Source: Tetraselmis striata (lineage: Eukaryota; Chlorophyta; Chlorodendrophyceae; Chlorodendrales; Chlorodendraceae). From it: a DNA stretch of 64,000 bases. This document shows, piece after piece, positions 55,535 to 62,530 of this stretch (the first letter of the stretch is position 1; each line of letters begins with the position of its first letter). Position numbers and translations under genes: made by a program. The stretch lies in NCBI GenBank assembly GCA_006384855.1, contig VCJN01001114.1:1-64000 (forward strand), written 5' to 3'. The notes below the pieces were generated by a model. That model searched no databases and had not been told where the DNA came from. It worked only from the letters and a program-made list of their open reading frames with translations.

Positions 55535-55589
55535 ACAGTGACACTACCTCCATAATGAACATTCGGGGCGTTCACATTTTCACTGGGCG
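55535..55589. repeat. Left part of the repeat interrupted by Copia
   Basis: CAGTGACACTACCTCCATAA here and CTTACTATAGGGGTAGG after the element (62572-62588) resemble the two inverted ends of the repeat at 44955-45110. The last five bases, GGGCG, are the target duplication. Confidence 0.45.
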
Positions 55590-56074
55590 TGCTGGACCTA
55601 GGGTACCCCGGTACCCTGAATCCGCATTTTCTCTGTGAAATCCGCGTTGTGAAGTGCTACTGCCGTACATGTGCCTAAGATGTACGACACCCAGATGGTG
55701 CCACTGTACGGCACTAAGACTTCTCTCCCAGATTGTCTTCTTTGATGGAGCAGTGTCTACCCTAGTCGACACCTAGCCGGCTGGTGTAAATTGTCAGCCT
55801 CGGCTCCTGTAAATTCAGTCAACTGCTCTTCCCAGAAATATAGTTCCGACTCACCCTTTTCTCTCTCGTGACAGTGCCACTCAGCCATCACCACGGCGAC
55901 AGCGACTACCTTTCGTCCATCGCCCACGACTCATAGCAGCCCTTTGCCTTCCCAGTTTGCATCTCGCTTGCTGGCACTCGACGTGATTCGACGCATGCAC
56001 GCCGACTCACGCCGACTCTCCTCCCATCAGTGACAGTGCCACTCAGGCATCACTTCGACAATCTCCTTCCGACA
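55590..56074 (+). repeat. Left LTR of the Copia element
   Basis: 485 bp beginning TGCTGGACCTAGGG and ending CTTCCGACA. It matches 62046-62525. Confidence 0.9.
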
Positions 56075-56272
56075 TGTTTTTGGGCCCTCTCCTTTGGTTC
56101 GACGTCTTGCCCCGCCGTGCTCGACGCCTGCCAGAGGCTTCAACCTGCGTGTATCTCGACCCTCGACAGCTTTCGACGATCGACGGCGACGTGCGACGAG
56201 ATTTTTCTTCCCACCCGCCCACCCCTAGATTTATACATCTTCCATGCACCACAAGTGCTCCATCCCTTCGCG

Positions 56273-57160
56273 ATGTCTACCAGCATCACCACCGGCATGA
56301 TGAACACCCCCCTCGCCAACCTGGCTCGGCAGAGGGCGATCAAGACAGACCCTGGCAACGCCCCACCACCACCTGACTTCCCTGATGATACCAGTTCTCA
56401 TGACGCCTTCAGCCTGGACGGGGCATCGGACAGTGACTCAGGTGACATCCAGCATATCGAGCCGGCTGCAGTGAAGCCGACACTCGACCTCAAGAACGTC
56501 CCCATCTGGGACAAAACCCGTTCTACGCGGGACAACGCTCAAGCCATCAAGATCGCTCTCAGGAGCGCCGGCTACTTGGACACCACCAAGGGCAAAGGCA
56601 CCCGTCAGGAACAAATGATCCTCCTAGCAGCCCTGCGCCATGCAACAACGAATTATCCCATGCCATCGTCAACAACATCAACATGGACTCCAGGAAGTGT
56701 GGATATACAGTCTCGAAGGCCCTTCTTACTAAGCTCCAGGGCTCAGCCATGAAGGAGCGCAAGCGCTTGCTTGGAGGAGGAGATCACGGCGGGCCAGCTC
56801 CCGAATGAGCAAGTTCAGGTGTATGTTCGGCGCTCCCAGAACCTCTGGAATCTGTTGAACAAGGTACATGGCCAGTGGACCTTCGAGTACGTGGCCACCA
56901 ACTACCTTATCCCAGGCCTTCACCCAGACTACGGTCATATCGTCGACACCACAACCTCGGCGGCCACTATCAGCGCGAAGCTGGCAACCATCATCAGCGC
57001 CGGACAGAACATGGAGGCGCGCAAGCGTCAACGCTAGCAGCGCGTCCGCGCGTGCCCGCCAAACCTCAATTCCTACAAACCCAGGGATCCGCAGCACACC
57101 ACCAGGTCCAGCGTCATTTGCAGACGGTGTGACCGTCCGGGCCATACCCAACAGCAGTGT
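56273..57160 (+). pseudogene. Copia gag region with zinc knuckle
   Basis: The region starts with MSTSITTGMMNTPLANLARQ and contains gag-like stretches such as QVYVRRSQNLWNLL. It ends in the knuckle CRRCDRPGHTQQQC at about 57118-57159, a C-x2-C-x4-H-x4-C pattern typical of nucleocapsid. The region is decayed. Confidence 0.7.
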
Positions 57161-59010
57161 GTGGCCGAGCGCCATGCCAACGGCCTGCGTATCCTGGATG
57201 ACACCGCGCCGACCGGCGCCATGAACGGCCCTCGCTATGACCGTCATCAGTGCGAACTTGGGGAGCGTCGCGTCAACACCAGCCATAGCCACAACCCGTG
57301 CGACAACTACCACCATCAGGCGCCGCTAGGTCAGCATTTCTACAACAACAACTGCACCAATCAGGACATGCTTCAGCGTCAGCAGCGTTGGACCAACCAG
57401 AGAGGCAATGACGGCATGCAGCGTCATCAGCAGCCGGTCGGCTTCGTCTCCCCGGCCGGACATAAGCACCAGAGGCATCAACATGCCAACAACAACTCCA
57501 CCCAGCGGCCCACGGGACACCAAGAGGCCTACCCGTTCGTGGGTGTGTCCCCATCGGCCCAGCACCACAACAGCCTGCCCATCATGCTCACCTGCACCAC
57601 CGCAGCCCCAGGAGGGGCGGCCACCGGAGCACATGAGGGGGAGGGCGAGGACAGCGCGGAGGATGACTTACATGGCCCCTGGCACGTCCCCTACTCCGAC
57701 TCTTATGACGACTTCGAGTCCCCGTTCTCACACCCATGGCGTGTCCACCACTCCCGCCCTCACTCCCTCGCCTTTCCGATCTTCGATACCCCCGACACCC
57801 CCCCCCCCCCCCCCCCCCGCTGGAGCATTTATTTCCATCCCTACCCTCTCGATCCCCCCATCCACCTGTTCGACATCAATTGGCAACGTCCTCAACCCGT
57901 CCCCAACCCAGCCCAACCCCTATGCCTCACCTCACCCACATTCCCAGCCTCAGCGGCGTTGGCGTCCCACATCCTTTATGCGGAGCAAGGCGCCCTGCGT
58001 GGCGACCCGCCACCAACGCTACCGCTCCTCACCGCAGCGCCGATCCTCCCGCTGCCCACCTCTGTGATCATCGACCATCACTTTTCGCCGTGCCATGGCT
58101 CATCGGCATCTGGGGTAGAGGCTCTGGTAGAATACGGTTTCACCATCCACAAGATCACCGGCGCCGACCCATCGCCCGAGGCTCGTACTATGTGGACACA
58201 TCGCCTACATGTCATCAGCGACAAGTATCCGGACCGTCTGCCCCCATCAGCTTTTCATGACTGTCATGCCAGGACCCCCATGGACGTCAACGACATCACC
58301 ATCACGGCGCTAGAGACCCTTCGCCCGGTCACCCTCATCGTGTTAGGCCCACCGTGTCAGCCATGGTCACGCGCGGGTTCACGCGTTGGCTGGCGGGACC
58401 ATCGCTCTCGGGCCTTTGCTTCCGTCATCGGTTTCATGCGTTTCTACCTGACTACACAGCCCACACCGGTGCGCTATATTGTGGAGAATGTTCCAGGCGC
58501 GCTGGACTTCCCTGAGATACTCCCTGCACCGGCAACATCATGCGTGCAACCGCCTGCGGCTCGGCAGCTCACCGCGACACCCTCATGTGGACCAATATTG
58601 CTCCGCAAACAGACAGCCAGAACTACATTGACAACATCAACACCATCGAGCTCACCGACCCCAGCCCCTGCGCGTGGGACCTCTGCCTCTGAGTTCCCCC
58701 ACTTTCTTCCGGTAGTGACAACCGACTACTTTCCGAAGTTCGTCGCCTGCCCCGGCTAATACGTCTTTCGCATGCAAACCAATGGTCAGCCGGGCGCTGG
58801 CATGATCTACGAACATGATGGCCCTTGGTCATGGGCAGACAACGGCAGATGGTGCAAACCCCATGCAGCTCTACGCGCTCGCGCCATGGGCTTCACCTTG
58901 GAGGATCTGCCCACGTCTCACCTTTCTGAGGCGGCACTGCGCAAACTTCTCGGCGGAGTCATCGATCTCAACGTCGTGCGCAACTACATCAAGGCTGTCT
59001 CGGGCGCCGC
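57161..59010 (+). pseudogene. C5-cytosine DNA methyltransferase region inside the Copia element
   Basis: After a low-complexity linker (His/Pro-rich, including a C tract at about 57799-57818 that gives a Pro run), the region carries the core motifs of C5-cytosine methyltransferases in order. A motif I-like start is near 58085-58150 (SASGVEALVEYGF). Motif IV is GPPCQPWSRAG (about 58346-58378), with the catalytic cysteine. Motif VI is VENVPGA (58481-58501). Motifs IX and X are near 58905-58990 (RKLLGGVIDLNVVRNYI). The order and spacing fit a Dnmt-type enzyme, although motif I is diverged. The region follows the gag zinc knuckle in the same frame and precedes the protease, so it was part of the element's polyprotein. 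It is decayed. Confidence 0.85.
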
Positions 59011-59039
59011 CCCTTCCCCAGTCGTCATCACTGTCTGCC

Positions 59040-61940
59040 ACACGTCATACGGCACTTTCATCAGCAGCGACGGGGAGGCATGGGTGCTCATGGACTCGGG
59101 CGCATCCTCTCACGTCAACGCCCACCGCACCGACATCTACTACATGGATATTCCTGTGGCGGAACAATTTCTAGTGCGCGGCTTCGGGCAACCGGCAGTC
59201 GGCATCGGCACCGCACTGGCACCAACACTAGACATCCACCGGCAGGCCACATACCATTGTGGCACGAGACTGTTACCATACTCCCAACATCACCTCCAGT
59301 GTCGGTCTCACCAACATCAGCCGCCTCCTCAGCACCCATCAACTCAGCAAGCAGGGCTACTCTTTCTACTTCAGCCGCCTCCTCAACATCATGATTACCC
59401 CAGATGGCGCAGTCATCCACCTTCAGCCCTACCCCGGCACCACAGGCATGTACGGCATCGAGCTCCTTCCCATCCACGATCCCTCTCATGGGGTCATGGC
59501 GCTGCCATCTCCGACGGCTTCCCACTCCCTATGGCATCTTCGATTTGGTCATCGTTGTGCACGCCACATGGCACTCACCCAGCAGCACGCCATCGGCATC
59601 CCGACACTCGGCTTGGCACCTGAGGCCATCTGCCCAGCATGCATCCATGCTAAGTTCCACCAGCAGTCAGTCAACCGGCAGCCCTCCCCAGCGCAGCAGC
59701 GCCATACGTGCTTGTGGTCATCGACGACTGGAAGGGACCTTGCCCCTCGGTCACTGGCGCACAACATGTCTTTGGCGCAGTGGATTCCTACAATGGAGTG
59801 AAGGTAGCGATCACTATGCGCACCAAGGACGAGGCCGTCCGCGCCATCCATCAACTCCATGCGGCGGTGCTCGGCATGGGTCACACCGTTCAACGCATAC
59901 GTGCCGATCGCAGCGCAGTTTATACCGGCTCTCCGTTCTGTCAAGCATGCGCTGACCTCGACATTGCGCTGGAGTTTACCGCGTCCCACTCTCATCATCA
60001 GGCGGGCCTGGCGGAGCGCTCTTTCTGCACTATCGGTGAGTGTGCCCAAGCCATGCTCCTCCACGCCGGCCTCGACCGCACCTTTTGGGATTGGGCGTAT
60101 CTTCACGCCGTCTATCTTTACAACCGCCAGTGGAGCTCATCCGTCAACGACATACCTTGCACGCTGATGACCGGCCGCAAGCCCGACCTCACCGACCTGC
60201 ATGTTTTCGGCTGCGTGGCCTGGGTCAACATCTCTGTGACTATGAGGGCAGCCAAAGGCAAAATGACACCTAAATCCTGGCCGGGCATCTACGATGGCCG
60301 CCATGAGGACTCCGCCGGCTACCACATATACAACCCGGCTACCATGCGCGAAATAGTGACACGCAATGTCGTCTTTGACGAGGTAACACGACCCTTCTCC
60401 AGCACACTGGCTCTCTCTATGCCAGTCTTCCAGTTTCCCGACGATGACCACATGTTGGACGAGCCGCAGCCCTTGGACCAGCAGGAGGGGCCCCAAGCAC
60501 CGCCACCCATGCCACCATCAGCATCGCTTGACTAAGAGCAGGAGGGGCCCCCATCTCCGCATCAATACGAGCGGTATCTTCCGCGTCATCAAGAGGCGGA
60601 CGCCACTGTACTACAAGCTCCTCACTCCGGCGGATCGGCGCACCTGCCTTCCTCTTATGTCGACCTCGGCGACTACCACACCGCGCTTGTGGCATCCGCC
60701 ATCGCGGAGGTTGTGCGCCCCTACCCGGCTTAGATGGCCGCCCTCGCCGTACCGCCGGCACCTACTGTCCGCGTGTCCAAGGCGCCGCGCAACTACAAGG
60801 AGGCCATCTCTAGCAATCGCCCCGATGATTGGAAACAGTCCATGGACCGTAAGATCGCCTCAGTCTATCACCAAGATGGAGACTTTAGTTTGGATCAGCG
60901 TCCCTGAGCTTTGACGTGACAACCCATCCGCAATCATCATACAGACTGCGTGGGCCTTCGCGGAGAAACACGACAAGGATGGCAACTTCATCAAGCGCAA
61001 GGCCAGAGTGGTCGTCCGAGGCGATCAACTTACTGCCGGCGAGAACTACTATGACACCAAGACCTATGCCCCAGTTGGGAGCTTCATCGCCTTGCGCACC
61101 ACTATTGCTCTCGCAGTCCAACTCGACTGGGAGCTGTACCAGTTCGACGTCACATGTGCTTTCCTCAACGCTAACCTCGATGAAGATGAGGCGCTCTATG
61201 GCCTGCCGCAGGCGCCCAAGGCATGGTTTCTGCGCTTTTCTTCCTTTCTCCGTGACTTCGGCTTCGTCAACTCCGAGTGCGATCCCGGCCTATGGACGCT
61301 GCTCGCAGTCGATGGGTCCCTACTGGCCATCCTATGCTTCTACGTTGATGACATCATGCTGGCTACGTCCCCATCGTCCGACATCCATGAGCGTTGTCAG
61401 ACTTCTCTCATCACTACGTTTGATGCTACCACTGACGGCCTATGCACCTGGCTTCTTGGAATGGCCATTGACCGCAAGCCGGGAGGCGTGATCCACCTCC
61501 ATTCGGAGAAATACATCAACGACATCCTGACTACCCTCAACATGACGGCGTGCACACCTCGCCGCCTGCCCCGCACTCCGGATACCGATTTTCATGACCC
61601 TACAGTCGCCTATCGCGCGCGGGTTCAGAAGAGCGTGGCCCTGTCTATTGCCGAGGCGGAGTTCGTGGCGCTCTGCATGGCTTGCAAATGCATGGCGTTT
61701 ATTCGCTTTCTTCTGCGCCAGCTCAACCACCCCACCACTTACCCGGTACGGGTATGCGAGGACAATCAGGCGTGCATCGTTCAGGTGAAGCATGGTATGA
61801 TTACGGGCGCGCAACGCCACATTGACCTCAAGTTTCAGTATGCGCCCAACTCTGCCTAGACGGCATCATCGACATGCACTACACGCCTACCGCAGACCAG
61901 CTGACCGATTATTTCACTAAGGCGCTGCCCCTAACTACCT
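59040..61940 (+). pseudogene. Copia pol region: protease, integrase, reverse transcriptase, RNase H
   Basis: Protease: WVLMDSGASSHVNA (about 59077-59120). Integrase zinc region: WHLRFGH and CPACIHAKFH (59530-59660). Integrase core: LVVIDDW, RADRSAVY and AGLAERSF (59705-60040), giving the D, D and E positions. Reverse transcriptase: YAPVGSF, FDVTCAFLNANL and YVDDIML (61060-61355). RNase H: SIAEAEFVAL, EDNQACIVQV and TADQLTDYFTKAL (61640-61925). This is the typical Copia order. The region is decayed, with breaks in several places. Confidence 0.85.
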
Positions 61941-62045
61941 TTCTTCACTTCCGCGCTTTTCCATATGGGGTCATCCGAGGAGCCTTCCGTTGCGCCTCTG
62001 CCGCCGTCAGTCTTGCGCCAGCGGGCTTCCACACGATGAGGAGGG

Positions 62046-62525
62046 GTGTTGGACCTAGGGTACCCCGGTACCCTGAATCCGCATTTTCTCTTTGTGAAAT
62101 CCGCATTGTGAAGTGCTACTGCCGTACATGTGCCTAAGATGTACGACACCCAGATGGTGCCACTGTACGGCACTAAGACTTCTCTCCCATATCGCGATGG
62201 AGCGTGTCTTCCCTACTCGACACCTAGCCGGCTGGTACAAATTGTCAGCCTCGGCTGCTGTAAATTCAGTCAACCGCTCTTCCCAGAAATATAATTCCGA
62301 CTCACCCTTTTCTCTCTCGTGACAGTGCCACTCAGCCATCACCACGGCGACAGCGACTACCTTGCGTCCATCGCCCACGGCTCATAGCAGCCCTTTGCCT
62401 TCCCAATTTGCATCTCGCTTGCTGGCACTCGACGTGATTCGACGCATGCACGCCGACTCTCACCGACTCTCCTCCCATCAGTGACAGTGCCACTGAGCCA
62501 ACACTTCGACTATCTCCCTCCGACA
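62046..62525 (+). repeat. Right LTR of the Copia element
   Basis: 480 bp beginning TGTTGGACCTAGGG and ending CCTCCGACA, preceded by the purine tract at 62037-62045. Confidence 0.9.
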
Positions 62526-62530
62526 GGGCG

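Follow-up and report, generated by a model that had tools for sequence, protein, structure and literature searches.

The 64,000 nucleotides analysed here (positions 1 to 64,000 of contig VCJN01001114.1, assembly GCA_006384855.1; hereafter the window) hold, at positions 55590-62525, one complete but decayed Copia insertion that carries a cytosine-5 DNA methyltransferase (DNMT) domain, predicted to be of the DNMT3 kind, between the zinc knuckle of gag and the protease. The host is Tetraselmis striata (Chlorodendrophyceae, Chlorophyta), the nearest annotated proteins, at 94-100% identity, bearing the names jgi/Tetstr1 and TSEL, so that the proviso of the initial annotation, that the genome might be that of a chlorophyte, is satisfied. 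The best explanation overall, which we regard as reasonably probable, is a Ty1/Copia family with a DNMT3-like enzyme in its Gag-Pol that is kept by selection, would be packaged and would methylate the element's own cDNA.

Cytosine methylation is a transposon silencing route in many hosts, and an element with a DNMT of its own therefore inverts the usual picture. T. striata offers a rich system in this respect: several Copia lineages that keep the DNMT are found beside DNMT-less Copia, a derivative that moved recently although its enzyme is dead, and an element of LINE type that carries a related module. DNMTs in retrotransposons have been known since 2018 from LINE, DIRS and Gypsy elements (de Mendoza et al., 2018, PMC5890265), including those of dinoflagellates and charophytes to which the initial annotation referred, and the T. 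striata Copia is therefore a variant and not the first of its kind. What is new with respect to the elements of 2018 is the superfamily (Copia), the position of the DNMT and the host lineage (a chlorophyte).

Anatomy and decay of the window element

The insertion is flanked by a perfect 5-bp target-site duplication, GGGCG (left copy 55585-55589, right copy 62526-62530, both by direct reading), and bounded by LTRs that begin with TG and end with CA. The 5' LTR (55590-56074, 485 bp, TGCTGG...CGACA) was delimited by alignment to the 3' LTR and by repeat search, and the 3' LTR (62047-62525, 479 bp, TGTTGG...CGACA) by alignment, repeat search and direct reading; their alignment of 492 columns shows 93.5% identity and includes 21 mismatches and 11 gap positions. 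Given this LTR pair and the perfect duplication, the insertion is complete. All features between the duplications lie on the forward strand, in the order gag-CCHC-DNMT-protease-integrase-RT. The gag region (56273-57118; 78% identity to the gag of the sister copy L029) is interrupted by a TGA at 56750-56752, with a local frame change ahead of it, and by a TAG at 57035-57037. It is followed by a CCHC zinc knuckle read from the sequence (CRRCDRPGHTQQQC; 57119-57160), for which Pfam reports zf-CCHC_5 only and below threshold (0.15), and by a variable linker (57161-58048) in which the Pfam scan found no domain. A run of about 20 C at 57790-57820 in the linker encodes a proline stretch longer than that of the sister copy P0001, possibly a sign of slippage or assembly trouble.

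Downstream of the DNMT domain (58049-59005) lie the retropepsin active-site motif MDSGASSHV of the protease (59090-59116), a GAG-pre-integrase domain (59469-59654; PF13976, gag_pre-integrs, 8.2e-7) and the integrase core with an SH3-like domain (59699-60391; PF25597, SH3_retrovirus, 2.9e-19; PF00665, rve, 2.9e-6, with a score of 27.9 bits that is below the curated cut-off of 32.6). These are followed by a Copia-type reverse transcriptase (60852-61604; PF07727, RVT_2, 4e-32; 83% identity to L029), a broken RNase H region with approximate ends (CEDNQACIVQVKH...; 61605-61950), which was placed by eye from a frame comparison with P0001 and has no Pfam match, and a polypurine-rich stretch (62033-62046) ahead of the 3' LTR. 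The order protease, integrase, RT and RNase H (the last by eye) with an RVT_2-type RT is that of Ty1/Copia; a Gypsy or DIRS assignment does not agree with this RT type and with the integrase lying ahead of it. The anatomy and the Copia family of the element can be regarded as close to certain.

PF00145 matches the frame 57038-58759 (E 6.7e-9, 36 bits against a cut-off of 22), although the Pfam alignment covers only positions 45-116 of the 324 of the profile, and the span 58049-59005 was set by an open-frame sister copy (76% identity, tblastn). Motif IV (GPPCQPWS) starts at 58346 and motif VI (VENVPG) at 58481; a frameshift near 58530 leaves motif VIII (HRDTLMWTNIAP) in another frame (58516-58692, HRDTL at 58570), and a TAA at 58757-58759 breaks the original frame ahead of motifs IX-X, which begin at 58760. 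A profile made from ten retrotransposon DNMTs (retro-DNMTs) scored 198, 47 and 71 bits on the three frame pieces. The significant PF00145 match and the catalytic PC and ENV in order identify a C5-cytosine methyltransferase and, with the Copia domains following downstream in order, bear out the initial annotation on the presence of such an enzyme between zinc knuckle and protease, on the sequence of motifs IV, VI and IX-X and, given the interrupted gag and the frameshift and TAA of the DNMT, on the decay of this copy. The span that it had assigned to the domain, 57161-59010, does contain it but starts 888 bp too early: at 57161 the zinc knuckle gives way to linker (57161-58048), because the sister-copy alignment starts the DNMT at 58049.

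Copies, Copia lineages and conservation

The assembly (224,097,584 bases in 2903 contigs) contains at least 123 PF00145 matches among 337 candidates, other kinds of DNMT included. With the DNMT piece of the window as query, 151 genome matches were obtained; the 150 listed fall into tier A (63 rows, with an identity of at least 79%), tier B (62 rows, 53-72%, an identity band that is impure in that two rows at 72% on contigs C308 and C477, L049 and L050, retain the catalytic PCQ) and tier C (25 rows, 38-42%). The DNMT of a second lineage, D, gave 132 rows; besides D itself, these include C, E (about 45-48%) and, at identities close to 50%, H and further rows. Merged within 2 kb, both lists amount to 245 places, a count inflated by alleles on separate contigs. 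Frames of at least 2,000 aa accompany 7 of the 150 rows and 20 of the 132 (by manual count, 25 distinct places); such frames do not by themselves denote intact elements, as the 2085-aa frame of L031 exits the RNase H frame near its end. An RT match lies downstream on the same strand in 50 of the 63 tier A rows (median distance 2,874 bp) and in 12 of the 25 tier C rows (eleven at 3,258-3,265 bp); these counts rest on 150 listed of 163 RT matches, so that a row lacking a partner may reflect a partial copy, a contig end or an unlisted match. Among the listed RT rows, 48 of 150 have no listed DNMT match upstream, and these comprise relatives of 83-93% identity and families at roughly 40%.

Several copies have moved recently. 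The LTRs of L028 are identical at 465 of 465 positions and those of L026 show one mismatch and two gaps in 470 columns; with L033, described below, the LTR pairs are 99.4-100% alike, and the 5-bp duplications are GGATG, CATAT and CACCT. The copy on contig C228 (L032), which shares a 573-aa frame with the window element, was considered as an independent sister insertion and rejected, as its 99.1% match to the window over 8,101 bases includes the flank; it is therefore an allele or duplicate. Alleles or duplicates thus appear to have been assembled into contigs of their own, which inflates copy counts.

Sister elements with the same order, which the initial annotation had proposed to search for, are numerous in the assembly and some have long open frames. 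The DNMT directly precedes the protease in five diverged Copia lineages of T. striata, seen whole in A, C and D and partly in E and H. In open-frame copies of A, C and D, a single frame of about 2,050-2,300 codons encodes Gag, DNMT, protease, integrase, RT and RNase H. In P0001 (tier A, contig C1014), the stop-to-stop frame has 2162 aa with a first likely Met at 111, the zinc knuckle at 395, the DNMT at 701-1022, the protease at 1051, then the integrase, and the RT at 1669-1900; in P0002 (lineage D, 2299 aa) the knuckle is at 282, the DNMT at 814-1118 and the protease at 1139. Both carry the zinc knuckle, PF00145, PF13976, PF00665, PF25597 and PF07727. Lineage C (L034, 2164 aa) has the same order with SH3-like and RT domains downstream, the Pfam scan reporting no integrase core in it. 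E (P0148) and H (L058) have the DNMT followed by the protease motif, H with RT sequence as well (L061). P0026, a Copia-type polyprotein of 2514 aa from a 74-kb contig of another organism, repeats the order with a DNMT 45% identical to that of D. The gap between knuckle and protease is 635-1,018 aa in A, C, D and P0026, against 191 aa in P0147 (L019), a DNMT-less Copia control from the same genome that gives no match to the DNMT profile.

The DNMT is conserved about as well as integrase and RT. Identity between A and C is 41% and 37% in the two parts of the DNMT, 38% in integrase, 39% in RT and 25% in both gag and linker; between A and D the values are 31% and 30%, 33%, 34%, 25% and 22%, respectively. 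RT identities rank the pairs D-H (71%), D-P0026 (61%), A-C (39%) and A-D (34%), and the DNMT gives the same ranking (52, 44, 36 and 30%). The Copia DNMTs of the five T. striata lineages and P0026 share one ancestor, as the trees described below support, and the DNMT was likely inherited together with pol throughout. The integrase of P0147 is 38% identical to that of D and 34% to those of A and C, whereas A and D share 30%; as P0147 is thus nearer D than A is, P0147 may have lost the DNMT, or there may have been exchange between Copia elements.

All six Copia lineages other than the derivative B (A, C, D, E, H and P0026) retain the Cys of motif IV and the motif VI ENV. The 22 A-type DNMT segments compared, picked by hand and not at random, consist of L029, L031 and 20 others, of which two come from the 72% band; 12 of the 22 are open and 10 contain stops. 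L048, the most diverged open A copy, shows a dN/dS of 0.27 at dS 0.25 against L029; the window against L029 gives 0.24 for the DNMT, 0.19 for RT, 0.15 for integrase and 0.26 for a gag piece, and values between 0.04 and 0.71 were obtained for other A-type pairs of low dS, all these pairs mixing selection with post-insertion decay. Conservation and dN/dS support retention of the DNMT by selection along the Copia lineages, and the domain is very probably useful to the element. Use of the DNMT by the family, which the initial annotation had read from the domain placement, agrees with this.

A shortened derivative, B (L033, L059, L060), has lost the catalytic residues: PCQ is changed to PLQ and ENV to QNC in all three copies. 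In L033, the DNMT stops after motif VIII, protease and integrase are gone and a single 1235-aa frame continues as far as RT remnants; the LTR pair of L033 shows 99.8% identity across 482 columns. In tier B, an RT partner was found in 10 of 62 rows, eight of them at 1,155-1,173 bp as compared to 2,874 bp in tier A. Derivative B has been mobile recently with a dead DNMT, and DNMT activity is therefore dispensable in cis; presumably the derivative uses proteins of full-length copies supplied in trans. The dN/dS between A and B is 0.28 for gag, 0.53 for the DNMT and 0.55 for both linker and RT remnant.

Enzyme type and function

In the PDB, the retro-DNMT profile matched DNMT3A best (3.4e-18, 69 bits), followed by DNMT3B, HhaI (2.5e-10), DNMT2 (39 bits) and DRM2, and by this similarity the Copia enzyme is DNMT3-like. 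The DNMT3A match spans motifs I, IV-IX and X, including SAAHR..-W.N, with motifs I and X contributing just 5-6 bits. The canonical AdoMet motif I is F-x-G-x-G, with an aromatic residue, and DNMT3A has F-D-G; the retro-DNMT family instead has C-x-G with the Cys invariant in 10 of 10 rows, and thus lacks the canonical aromatic motif. This alteration lowers the certainty of activity and leaves the homology unaffected. An AlphaFold model of P0027 (tier A, without motif X) has a mean pLDDT of 60, with residues 101-240 (approximately) at 81-96 and predicted to form alternating strands and helices.

According to the explanation that we favour, the DNMT would most likely enter the virus-like particle together with Gag-Pol and would methylate the new cDNA before or during integration, so that a new copy would arrive already marked; derivative B would presumably have moved on the proteins of the full-length copies. 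The position of the DNMT after the nucleocapsid knuckle fits particle packaging without proving it. By analogy with SymbioDIRS-Dnmt3, self-methylation of cDNA may be the reason why the DNMT was kept, a proposal for which we see the chances as evenly balanced. The points against it are the undepleted CpG, the altered motif I, the LINE-type relatives and the mobile derivative with a dead enzyme. The observed/expected CpG ratio is 0.91 in the window element versus 0.95 in the rest of the window, 0.81-0.97 in other DNMT-bearing elements and 0.79 in a DNMT-less Copia (a 2.5-kb piece); CpG depletion as a trace of self-methylation is absent in the window element and in the other DNMT-bearing elements sampled, so these show no deamination trace of the process.

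The same CpG values are compatible with a DNMT that acts otherwise, on element or host DNA in trans or on element RNA, which we consider unlikely but worth attention. Related retro-DNMTs occur in LINE-type elements, in P0020 of another organism and in the T. striata LINE-type element, and LINE-type elements are not known to make free cDNA. SymbioLINE-Dnmt had no DNA activity in yeast, a result that its authors called inconclusive while suggesting RNA as substrate (PMC5890265). Against a DNMT that acts otherwise, the module is nearer to DNMT3 (69 bits) than to the tRNA enzyme DNMT2 (39 bits). A structural or nucleic-acid-binding extension of Gag, in which catalysis no longer matters, would agree with the recent mobility of derivative B and with the long open frame that L033 keeps despite PLQ and QNC in all three copies, and also with a motif I altered across the whole retro-DNMT family; we judge it improbable, since all six Copia lineages other than B preserve ENV and the Cys of motif IV and the constraint on the DNMT is weaker in B (A-B dN/dS 0.53 against 0.28 for gag), though linker and RT remnant (0.55 each) are equally relaxed. 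That a later insertion or a chimeric assembly put the DNMT into one Copia copy, an event that the initial annotation had named as fatal to its reading, is exceedingly improbable: nothing was found in support of it, the DNMT occurs at 245 places genome-wide, it precedes the protease in five lineages and in the 74-kb contig of another organism, and near-identical LTRs and duplications surround several DNMT-bearing copies. Late insertion of the DNMT into a single copy is accordingly rejected by the sister copies.

Relatives in other retrotransposons and origin

A search of 5.8 billion proteins, in which 8,000 candidates that shared most words with the query and had 0.55-1.75 times its length were compared, gave 146 matches. 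Among the 120 listed, those with at least 79 bits are Tetstr1, metagenome or eukaryote proteins, and the score falls to 66 bits for seemingly ordinary bacterial methylases. Three of those at 79 bits or more (P0035, P0038, P0084) show Gypsy RNase H or H2C2 domains; most metagenome proteins at this level show a single domain and their retroelement context is suggested by their clade. In three Ty3/Gypsy proteins of other organisms (P0018, P0019, P0021) the DNMT lies between RNase H and integrase and is accompanied by a PHD finger. P0020 contains, in one polyprotein, Exo_endo_phos, RVT_1, PHD, PCIF1_WW, DNMT and RNase H. These four proteins and P0026 belong to the same DNMT clade as the T. striata Copia; P0026 also shares its order, whereas the other four differ from it by the PHD finger and P0020 by PCIF1_WW as well; scans of four complete Copia polyproteins (P0001, P0002, P0026, L034) detected neither domain. 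The LINE-type element of T. striata (L057, L062; contig C2687), so labelled on its similarity to P0020, has a 3505-aa frame with a same-clade DNMT and four copies at 92-100%; its identity to P0020 is 38% along 464 aa that include the DNMT and extend past it, and 23% in an upstream piece.

Three trees were used: one of 29 rows, one of 28 (the 29 without P0090, P0055, P0044 and P0036, plus DNMT3A as three joined segments, a DNMT from a Polinton-like locus and one from a giant-virus-like locus) and one of 19 (16 of the 29, lineages B and E and DNMT3A, with no bacterial rows). In the 28-row tree the retro-DNMTs form one clade (100/98), which DNMT3A joins (99/98) as against the bacterial, Polinton-like and giant-virus-like rows, a grouping that involves a single DNMT3 row on a long branch and no DNMT1, DNMT5 or DNMT6 row. 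The Copia DNMTs form one clade in all three trees (97/96 with 28 rows, 99/94 with 29, 98/94.9 with 19), nested in the clade also found in Ty3/Gypsy and LINE-type elements, and the LINE-type DNMTs form another (98/97 with 28 rows, weaker, 82/93, with 19). Holding the eight Gypsy-like rows together was rejected in the 19-row tree (p-AU 0.008). A Gypsy domain is present in five of these rows and the remaining three were placed by clade; the group was named after a tree had been seen, and DNMT3A is on a long branch in this tree too.

The trees do not favour another independent capture, as the initial annotation had surmised: the Copia DNMTs clade with those of Ty3/Gypsy and LINE-type elements, and passage between retrotransposons is therefore no less likely than a new capture from the host. 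A DNMT3-derived module resident in retrotransposons may have moved from one class to another (Ty3/Gypsy, LINE, Copia), diversified along with Copia in algae and, in T. striata, come to support a shortened Copia with a dead enzyme that is parasitic on full-length relatives; this scenario is offered tentatively, as somewhat short of an even prospect. No DNMT3-like host donor was seen in 17 stretches (L009-L025) that represent part of the genome's PF00145 places, where matches to the retro-DNMT profile were limited to three exon-like frames (L021, L022, L023; 40-53 bits, around motifs IV-VI). In prokaryote genomes, the best 80 of 405 related loci align mostly around motifs IV-VI (23-52%), and viral contigs hold at least two weak loci related to the retro-DNMTs.

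Among known systems, KnitGypsy-Dnmt3 of Klebsormidium nitens, compared by its description, is likewise an LTR retrotransposon whose polyprotein includes a DNMT3-type domain, and it is intronless, present in multiple copies and reported to be under purifying selection; it is a Gypsy element of a charophyte with the DNMT in its Pol polyprotein (PMC5890265), whereas the T. striata element is a Copia (integrase before RT) of a chlorophyte with the DNMT between zinc knuckle and protease. SymbioDIRS-Dnmt3 of Symbiodinium also has a DNMT3-type domain in a retrotransposon polyprotein but is a DIRS element with a tyrosine recombinase, and its domain performed de novo CG methylation in yeast, while the activity of the T. 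striata enzyme is predicted (PMC5890265). SymbioLINE-Dnmt, a LINE with a DNMT and similar in kind to the T. striata LINE-type family, differs in that its DNMT, an orphan, is encoded by a separate ORF that precedes the one for RT (PMC5890265), unlike P0020, where a DNMT3-like domain lies between RT and RNase H of a single polyprotein. The account of Symbiodinium elements in the 2018 paper presents Copia without any DNMT, and its discussion left open what a DNMT does for its element (PMC5890265). One sentence of a later paper (PMC12344493, Mol Biol Evol 2025) has some DNMT3 embedded in 'LTR Copia and DIRS', crediting the 2018 paper and referring to streptophytes/dinoflagellates; the name Tetraselmis does not occur in its main text, where no element anatomy was found, and the K. 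nitens element is Gypsy in PMC5890265 as opposed to this 'Copia' wording. Within the open-licence PMC literature (subscription papers, preprints and supplements lying outside it), no description was found of the anatomy of a DNMT-carrying Copia or of a retro-DNMT from Tetraselmis or another chlorophyte.

The assembly also contains DNMT genes of other kinds. Ten of the stretches (L009-L014 and L016-L019; contigs C1993, C776, C1647, C2337, C355, C1455, C2272 and C1230) contain a repeated DNMT gene with long PF00145 matches, which in L010 lies beside a PolB-like frame (PF03175, 8e-6, just below the cut-off); these are probably Polinton-like virus insertions, the copies other than L010 being grouped solely by similar neighbouring frames. 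L024 (C2009:25281-35181) encodes a 630-aa DNMT that by eye is bacterial or phage-like, and its contig may be a contaminant. L015 (C2385:451505-461405, on a 654-kb contig) has an open DNMT frame beside a large frame resembling an RNA polymerase subunit 1 with intein-like blocks (by eye), and is possibly a giant-virus insertion.
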